Assembly (NCBI GenBank): GCA_020629515.1
Contig: JAHDDE010000013.1
Location: forward strand, 22,072 to 86,071
Direction of reading: 5' to 3'
Source of the DNA: Saprospiraceae bacterium
Lineage (GTDB): Bacteria; Bacteroidota; Bacteroidia; Chitinophagales; Saprospiraceae
DNA: 64,000 nucleotides
Below are positions 15,152 to 20,229 of the stretch, piece by piece. The notes beneath the pieces were generated by a model, which did no database searches, was not told the origin of the DNA, and was given only the letters and a program-made list of their open reading frames with translations. The position numbers were made by a program, and so were the translations under genes. Numbering within the stretch: the stretch's first letter is position 1; each line of letters opens with the position of its first letter.

Positions 15152-16021
15152 TTAAGATCTTGTGAAAATTATTTTTTCGATTTGCTTTTCAGCATTATTT
15201 CCGTTTTGAACTTCTACTAAGTAAGTACCTGATGTGAAGTCATTTAAACTTACAATTGCTTGATTTTGTCCGCCTACAACTTGAGTTAACATTTTAACTC
15301 CATTTAAATTTCTTAGAGTAACCGTAGCTTCAGAGTCAAACTGTAAGTTTGAAGAGATTTTGATGAAATCTGCAGTAGGATTAGGTCCCACTTGGATATC
15401 AATAACTTCTGCAACATTACTCTTATTAGGAGTAGCGAATAAGTCTTCAAACCCTTCACCAGAAACAGTCTCTACTAATTGTGGTTGAACCCACTCAGAG
15501 ATTAAAGAATAAGCACTTGCGTATTGGTTAGTTTTATTTTCTCTTGCCCATGTAGCTACAACAGGGATTTCAGTATTTTCAATTGCGAAATCTACGCTTG
15601 CTACGGTAACCCATCCGTCTCTTGTATTTATAACTGCCCCACCAGTAACTAAATCGCTTAACTCGATGAATAAATTAACAAACCCCAAATTTGCATCGTA
15701 GTCAAGTGCACCGATCTCAGAAGCATTAAATCCTTCTATTGATTCGATTACTTCTACATCATAATACAATTCACCTGGTAAGAAAGATTCAGCACTAAAC
15801 TCATCAATCGTCATATTTTTTGAGTCGTAGTAAAATCTATAGTATTGGTCAGCTAAAACGAAATTATCTTCAGTAGCTTTTATTTGGATGTCAACAGTTA
15901 CTTTATCACTGTCGATGCTATAATCGTTTTCTATTAATCTGAATGCAACGCCATTTTGAGAGATAGCTATTGTTGCTAAGAGTTGAAATGTAAGTAAGAA
16001 GATTGTAGTCAATTTTCTCAT
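15152..16021 (-). CDS. Secreted protein with T9SS type A C-terminal sorting domain
   Basis: Signal peptide; C-terminal IQVGPNPTADFIKISSN...LRNLNGVKMLTQVVGG...FTSGTYLVEVQNG; upstream part cohesin/adhesin-like beta-rich. Confidence 0.85.
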   Translation of the reverse strand: MRKLTTIFLLTFQLLATIAISQNGVAFRLIENDYSIDSDKVTVDIQIKATEDNFVLADQYYRFYYDSKNMTIDEFSAESFLPGELYYDVEVIESIEGFNASEIGALDYDANLGFVNLFIELSDLVTGGAVINTRDGWVTVASVDFAIENTEIPVVATWARENKTNQYASAYSLISEWVQPQLVETVSGEGFEDLFATPNKSNVAEVIDIQVGPNPTADFIKISSNLQFDSEATVTLRNLNGVKMLTQVVGGQNQAIVSLNDFTSGTYLVEVQNGNNAEKQIEKIIFTRS

Positions 16022-16062: not shown

Positions 16063-16093
16063 CAAATGTATACGATATGTAGGATGTAGACAA
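16063..16093 (-). promoter_or_regulatory. Bacteroidota-type promoter for the 15152-16021 gene
   Basis: Minus strand TTG (16091-16093), 20-nt spacer, TACATTTG (16063-16070), matching the TTG-N19/21-TAnnTTTG consensus; about 40 nt upstream of ATG at 16021. Confidence 0.7.
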
Positions 16094-16329
16094 GTTGTAG
16101 ATGTAGACAATCTGTAGTTATGACAAGTAGATGACACCAATATAATAGATATTATATTTTGTAATGTATAAGTCATTGATAAATAATATTATTATTGTGG
16201 TATAAAGAGAGATGTAGGCAGGTGTTTTTTTTAATATTCCACAAATAAGTAGTATTTGTGTAGAAGAAGAATAGAGCGAAAATAAGATTTGTAGGAGTGT
16301 AGATTGCTTTATTTGTAGTCTACATGTAG
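16078..16329. repeat. Cluster of 11 same-strand TGTAG motifs, including a 17-bp tandem duplication (16083-16116) and CTACATGTAG palindrome (16320-16329)
   Basis: TGTAG starts at 16078, 16085, 16096, 16102, 16113, 16213, 16259, 16290, 16298, 16314 and 16325; counted by eye. Confidence 0.8.
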
Positions 16330-16484: not shown

Positions 16485-16514
16485 AAATAAAAAAGGCCAC
16501 TTCATTAAGTGGCC
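16485..16514 (-). terminator. Rho-independent terminator
   Basis: GGCCACTT-aatg-AAGTGGCC followed by TTTTTTATTTC on the minus strand. Confidence 0.75.
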
Positions 16515-19136: not shown

Positions 19137-20229
19137 CGCTAATGAACTCAAAGGTCGCTACCGCACGTGTCGTGTCCCATGCTATGATCATGTCAGCTTT
19201 ATTATAATCCTTTTCTTCAAAAACTATAGAAAGATATTCTACTACTTCCGCCTCCCTATAACTTGGTATCTTAACCTTAACTATGTCTTTCGAGTCATCT
19301 CGATTTTCAGGACCCCAAGAAGGAATATCTTTAGAGAATATTAGGGTCCACTCATTTTTATTCACCTCAGCGTATAATCCATAATTTCCTGGGTTAACTA
19401 TTTTGTCTCCAATTTTGGCTTTTTCATTTAGGAGTATTTCTGTTGACTCATTGGCTCCTAGCCTCCATATTTTTCCATAGGGTACAAGTGAGCCAAATAC
19501 AGCTCTATTTTTTTTGGCCGGACGATGATATGCTACGGTGATTTTTGCCTTTATTTCTCTGTCATCTCCTTTGAGATAGTTTGTATAAGCGCTATTAGCA
19601 GGATAATGTGCTATATCTAACTGACTTGCATCAAGTTGATTAAATTGTATTGGATTAAAACTGATGGGAACTCGCACTCTTGTCATTTCCCATTGTATAA
19701 TAAGCTCGATATTTTTATCATCTAACTCTTGAAAAGTCATACTTAGCGCTTCCGTGCTTTCTTGAATTTCTTCTACAGGTACTTTTATTGTGGCTACTGT
19801 TTGATCTTTATCTCGATTGGCAATACCCCATATTCCTAATTCTGTTGAGAAATTTATAGTCCATTGATCCTCATGGACGACAGCCCATAAAGTATAGTTG
19901 CCAGCCTGCAAGGTAGTGCCATTGATGCCTACTGGTTGATAAAAGCTGATAGTAGTGGCTTCATTAGCACCGAGTCGCCATTCAGAGCCGTATGCGACTA
20001 ATCCGCCAAAGATATCTCGATTATTTTTTTGAGGCCTGGAGTAAAGTAACTTCGCCTTTGGAGTCATCTGTCTTTCTTCTTCTTTAAGATAATTTCTCCA
20101 GGCTACTTCTTTGGGATAATAAATCACATCCATAGGACTGGCATCAATAACAGGCCATTTATCTTCACTTTGTCCTGAAATAGTAAGACCCAGTAGATTT
20201 AAAAATATTGTTCCAATTATTATTCTCAT
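19132..20229 (-). CDS. Secreted protein with two tandem DUF2911-like domains
   Basis: RPQKNNRDIFGGLVAYGSEWRLGANEATTI and RPAKKNRAVFGSLVPYGKIWRLGANESTEI, each followed by GNYxLxAxVxxxxWTxxFS. Confidence 0.85.
   Translation of the reverse strand: MRIIIGTIFLNLLGLTISGQSEDKWPVIDASPMDVIYYPKEVAWRNYLKEEERQMTPKAKLLYSRPQKNNRDIFGGLVAYGSEWRLGANEATTISFYQPVGINGTTLQAGNYTLWAVVHEDQWTINFSTELGIWGIANRDKDQTVATIKVPVEEIQESTEALSMTFQELDDKNIELIIQWEMTRVRVPISFNPIQFNQLDASQLDIAHYPANSAYTNYLKGDDREIKAKITVAYHRPAKKNRAVFGSLVPYGKIWRLGANESTEILLNEKAKIGDKIVNPGNYGLYAEVNKNEWTLIFSKDIPSWGPENRDDSKDIVKVKIPSYREAEVVEYLSIVFEEKDYNKADMIIAWDTTRAVATFEFISE

Follow-up and report, generated by a model that had tools for sequence, protein, structure and literature searches.

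The window analysed here, a stretch of 64,000 nucleotides from the 3.9-Mb genome of a Saprospiraceae bacterium (G000), carries on its minus strand a gene (15152-16021) for a 289-aa secreted protein with a signal peptide, a cohesin-like domain and a T9SS C-terminal sorting domain (PF18962). The best single-domain structural matches were dockerin-binding cohesins (6kgc, TM 0.68, and 2vn5, 0.67, target-normalised), and the T9SS C-terminal domain matched 8qb1 (0.69). The predicted promoter, on the same strand, consists of a -7 box, TACATTTG (16063-16070), which belongs to the TAnnTTTG type given as the -7 consensus of the Bacteroidetes primary sigma factor (PMC7366714), and a TTG at -33 (16091-16093) at a spacing of 20 bp. 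Within 252 bp, the pentamer TGTAG occurs 11 times on the plus strand (at 16078, 16085, 16096, 16102, 16113, 16213, 16259, 16290, 16298, 16314 and 16325), all of them already recorded in the initial annotation, and once on the minus strand (16320). On the sense strand of the gene, the plus-strand copies read CTACA.

Three intervals between copies are exactly 11 bp (16085/16096, 16102/16113 and 16314/16325), as had been noted, and they define three dyads on the minus strand. The promoter-proximal dyad (16085-16100; sense strand CTACAACTTGTCTACA) is an 11-bp direct repeat lying over the -33 TTG, so the earlier statement that the proximal copies overlap the TTG-N20-TACATTTG promoter region was borne out. 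The second dyad (16102-16117; CTACAGATTGTCTACA) is placed 17 bp from the first, and its 5' flank, TGTCATCTACTTGTCATAA, is similar to the flank found in the promoters of paralogs. The imperfect 17-bp tandem repeat reported here was also found (16083-16099/16100-16116, 88%). The distal dyad (16314-16329; CTACATGTAGACTACA) lies ∼210 bp further upstream than the proximal pair of dyads and includes the palindrome CTACATGTAG, within which the minus-strand TGTAG is located. A single CTACA half-site (16078-16082, minus strand) stands 7 bp from the -7 box, a spacing also present in the ortholog from the congener G002 and at G002 C22, and four more single half-sites on this strand (16213, 16259, 16290 and 16298, within 16213-16302) fall outside the 11-bp pairs.

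The density of the cluster is not expected by chance: when the 815-bp intergenic region was dinucleotide-shuffled 5,000 times, no more than 5 TGTAG were obtained per 252 bp, and never three dyads. TGTAG also showed the strongest clustering in the window of all 5-mers with at least three different letters (11 copies; next, 7). A generic excess of TGTAG in AT-rich intergenic DNA, which the initial annotation had named as an outcome that would count against its proposal, was rejected, because lone copies in G002 are less frequent in intergenic than in coding DNA (2.06 vs 2.79 per kb). The absence of intergenic enrichment for the single pentamer indicates that the signal is carried by the 11-bp pairing.

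To describe this pairing, we searched the window's own genome and two congeners, G001 (58% complete) and G002, for TGTAGR-N5-TGTAGR, equivalent to YCTACA-N5-YCTACA on the sense strand; genome-wide pair counts were taken from pattern searches and stretches, and refer to the exact pattern. The 11-bp pairs numbered 20 in G000 and 41 in G002 (a few of the latter being coding), compared with 5 and 17, respectively, for a reversed-pattern control. All 20 pairs in G000 were intergenic (counting one within a 71-aa open frame judged spurious), in contrast to 1 of the 7 found at 10 bp and 1 of the 13 at 12 bp; among the latter, a pair at C92 was assigned to coding sequence from its coordinates in a long frame. 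The difference between 11-bp and 10- or 12-bp pairs is marked (Fisher P 3e-9), with the proviso that P values assume independent sites and that duplicated promoters, such as the two copies on C91, break this independence. The spacing spectrum of G002 was measured in an 800-kb stretch that was picked independently of matches and is not affected by such duplicated promoters; here, 7 intergenic direct pairs had the 11-bp spacing, and every other spacing had 0 to 2 (Poisson P 2e-8). No 11-bp peak was present among coding pairs in the same 800 kb. When one mismatch was allowed, 19 pairs were counted at 11 bp vs a mean of 5, and the next highest value was 11 pairs at 22 bp, or two helical turns. Inverted pairs were not enriched in this sample, with at most one intergenic case per inverted spacing. 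Accordingly, the palindrome CTACATGTAG, although present where it had been reported, is probably incidental, and we rejected it as the key element. The functional unit is the 11-bp direct repeat, not TGTAG alone, and the earlier description overlooked both this unit and its recurrence as a regulon in the genus. The sense-strand consensus is YCTACA-A-N-T-N-S-YCTACA, and extra half-sites near dyads lie on the same strand, mostly at about -33, -22, -11, +22 and +33, with moderate counts for those in phase (5 at -11 and 5 at +22, for 53 dyads).

The cluster is kept upstream of the orthologous gene in both congeners, where its loss would have spoken against a regulatory role. In G001, the upstream region contains 8 CTACA in 364 bp, with a dyad 62 bp upstream and a distal cluster, and in G002 it contains 9 CTACA in 348 bp, with sense-strand dyads further up, a dyad on the opposite strand, and the half-site 7 bp from TACATTTG. 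Synteny between G000 and G002 covers seven of the intergenic regions with dyads (rarA/window gene, polA-nadB, msrA, C80/C26, C6/C1, C49/C11, and the one preceding ilvA), and the flanking proteins are mostly 44-86% identical between the species. Among 61 relatives searched, a clear excess of the motif is limited to this genus; G008 (6 vs 0) and G033 (8 vs 2) showed small excesses over the control, and in the 58%-complete G001 (6 vs 8) a genome-wide excess was absent. Neutral tandem-repeat expansion, or spread of a non-regulatory repeat related to a nucleoid protein or a mobile element, could account for the 17-bp repeat formed by the proximal copies in the window, but elsewhere only the half-sites and their 11-bp spacing are shared, the spacers differ, and the sites occupy promoter positions and keep their synteny between species; we judge such an origin most improbable. 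VNTR expansion as the sole cause was rejected on these grounds.

The family to which the window protein belongs has many copies per genome, and dyads are located upstream of most family members in the three species. Their distance to the start is 33-90 bp in G000 paralogs on C6, C49 and C91 (two copies) and in G002 copies on C1, C11, C21, C22 and C23; the paralog on C77 has a degenerate dyad, and the paralog groups on C16, C92 and G002 C11:786-789 kb were without upstream dyads. On C91, the tandem pair of cohesin-like T9SS genes (L149 3140-3961 and 4874-5695) shares N-terminal sequence, and each copy has its own dyad promoter, with different spacers. Signalling genes of G002 likewise have dyads in front of them: two encode single-domain response regulators, and one of these lies immediately 3' of a cohesin-like gene; two encode PAS proteins, including a histidine kinase of 1275 aa; and one encodes a further histidine kinase. 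Dyads were also found in this genome before genes for a secreted protease of the reprolysin type, for giant proteins (3172-3676 aa) and for a GerE protein of 72 aa. Several dyads are situated between genes that converge, and thus lack an obvious protein-coding target; this, like the paralogs without dyads, counts against the regulon reading.

Two promoter layouts were seen at dyads. The element ATGTG-N17/18-(C/A)GTC(T/A)TA was found 3' of the dyad on C6, C91 (two), and C77 (degenerate dyad) in G000, and on C1, C21, C23 and at C11:212855 in G002, and where the distance was measured, 28-30 bp separate its -10-like part from the end of the dyad; it looks more like an alternative (ECF-type) promoter. 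The window gene and the G002 C22 gene have TAnnTTTG boxes instead, and with TACATTTG as its -7 element the window gene resembles sigma-ABfr promoters (PMC7366714), unlike the other dyad promoters with ATGTG-N17/18-(C/A)GTC(T/A)TA. Relative to the predicted promoters, both layouts would bring the dyad to the -35 region or slightly above it. Because of this position near -35/-33, activation is preferred over repression, and a regulator sitting immediately upstream of or over this element would most likely activate transcription. The same layouts bear on whether the motif might instead act in RNA, as CTACA repeats in 5' leaders bound by an RNA-binding protein or a small RNA. Such a role would account for the strong orientation bias, in that most gene-proximal sites have CTACA on the sense strand, but the dyads are upstream of -7 boxes or of ATGTG-N17/18-GTC at fixed spacing, so that most would not be transcribed, and 11-bp helical phasing is a property of DNA; we consider action at the RNA level very unlikely.

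Two of the dyad-bearing regions seem to belong to non-coding units. Between polA and nadB, which are convergent in G000 and G002, there are four tandem half-sites (at intervals of 11, 12 and 11 bp in G000, on C20, the array that accounts for the sole intergenic 12-bp pair in that genome), followed by a ∼35-nt block identical in the two species (CATTTCAGCTTTAATACCCTTAAATTGTCGAG), and then a hairpin with a T run (G000 C20 ∼19380-19720, L134 5380-5720; G002 C11 ∼882700-883000, L187). A conserved open frame was absent from this genus-restricted unit in both genomes, and the 22-nt core of the block occurred once each in G000 and G002 and in 0 of 59 other genomes when up to two mismatches were allowed. 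At G002 C11:212855 (L164 12600-12950), a dyad is followed by ATGTG-N17-CGTCTTA, ∼130 nt, a GC hairpin and a T run, the same layout as at polA-nadB. Both units look like small-RNA genes and would be transcribed. Rfam searches matched nothing but a tRNA at the small-RNA-like loci, and gave no match in the window.

These results make the initial proposal of a multi-site regulator platform well supported at the level of sequence, since the motif is present in orthologs and TGTAG is not generally over-represented, and they suggest that the window cluster is a putative operator of the 15152-16021 gene within a regulon. We think it probable, with some reservation, that its regulator is a winged-helix protein of the OmpR/PhoB type bound head-to-tail. 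Such an operator would consist of head-to-tail YCTACA(A) half-sites exactly 11 bp apart, sometimes in three or four copies, and the spacing would place them on one face of the helix for a dimeric or tandem-binding protein, most likely an OmpR/PhoB-type response regulator, with one subunit per half-site. In the window, two dyads and a single half-site are packed against the predicted TTG-N20-TACATTTG promoter. The regulon would comprise genes for cohesin-like T9SS surface proteins and for giant secreted proteins, genes for receiver-domain proteins and histidine kinases, and the small-RNA-like units.

The PhoB box, TGTCA-N6-TGTCA, is similar in that an 11-bp pair adjoins or replaces the -35 element, but its fourth and fifth bases differ, and phosphate genes were not seen among the targets examined. 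LytTR operators are direct repeats of ∼21-22 bp, and this two-turn spacing is not that of the exact pairs found here (7 at 11 bp vs 2 at 22 bp). ArcA sites are made of 2-5 direct repeats whose centres are 11 bp apart, two of them forming the core (PMC3798270), and they share with the present motif the additional in-phase repeats on the same strand and the long multi-site operators; the ArcA half-site is another one, and ArcA sites are degenerate vs the near-exact CTACA here. The WalR/VicR site, TGTWAH-N5-TGTWAH (PMC4168254), is likewise a hexamer-N5-hexamer direct repeat, with a nearly identical TGTA start, and can overlap -35, but its fifth base is A, while it is G in TGTAGR, by definition of the pattern, and the enriched pairs are TGTAG; it also belongs to another phylum and other target genes, and the WalR regulon proper was rejected because of the mismatch at position 5. 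A consensus for comparison was absent from the P. gingivalis RprY paper. The ∼11-bp direct repeat and the extra same-strand half-sites in helical phase are thus shared with OmpR/PhoB tandem operators, a resemblance that we take as likeness rather than membership, as the half-site is a different one and the motif could be linked to no regulator gene.

The same operators and regulon could be served by an HTH protein of the NarL/LuxR type (GerE), perhaps a short orphan one of 70-100 aa, or by another tandem-binding family. GerE-type regulators are abundant (50 domain matches in G002 and 23 in G000), which makes a regulator of this kind possible; the dyad at G002 C11:26755 has the GerE gene of 72 aa on one side and the gene of a divergent LytTR regulator on the other, and a NarL-type regulator gene is the upstream neighbor of the dyad at G000 C30:1074. 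However, NarL-type sites are commonly inverted and the pairs described here are strictly direct, and the GerE and LytTR genes examined had an exact dyad only in the one intergenic region shared at C11:26755, leading us to regard this alternative as rather unlikely. Trans_reg_C (PF00486) genes number 6, 3 and 5 in the three genomes, and the OmpR-type regulators include 4 orthologous groups common to the species; none of the OmpR-type genes examined in these genomes had an intergenic dyad nearby, and no convincing case of autoregulation links the motif to an OmpR, GerE or LytTR gene. The rapidly diverging OmpR group B was rejected as a genus-specific regulator, because its relatives are found in nearly all family and order genomes searched, unlike the motif excess. 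As a separate observation, many LuxR/NarL-type HTH domains of G002 sit in frames of 70-110 aa, with no room for a receiver domain.

To our knowledge, few operators or regulons have been characterized in Saprospirales, and a literature search found no description of the motif or of a cohesin-like T9SS regulon. A motif with 20-40 sites offers a handle on the regulator of a surface-protein programme and on at least one conserved small-RNA-like gene. More tentatively, the sites might represent a global regulon specific to this Saprospirales genus, in which a regulator not yet recognized acts by way of a novel tandem operator with 11-bp spacing and a promoter of the alternative-sigma-like kind, a possibility to which we give limited credence; if true, small RNAs and signalling genes would be tied to the cohesin-like T9SS surface proteins and the giant secreted proteins in a surface-assembly programme not known from Bacteroidota.

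Other sequence features were also noted. A second word, GCCGACA/TGTCGGC or GGCGACA/TGTCGCC, occurs near several dyads, at too few sites for an interpretation (L040, L141, L170, L164, L212, L152, L149 and L234). In the window, a strong terminator-like hairpin, GGCCACTTAATGAAGTGGCC-TTTTTTATTT (16495-16514, minus strand), lies ∼320 nt past the rarA-like gene, and the sequence just before it, TCATACGAC, recurs before a similar hairpin at G000 C93 (L138).
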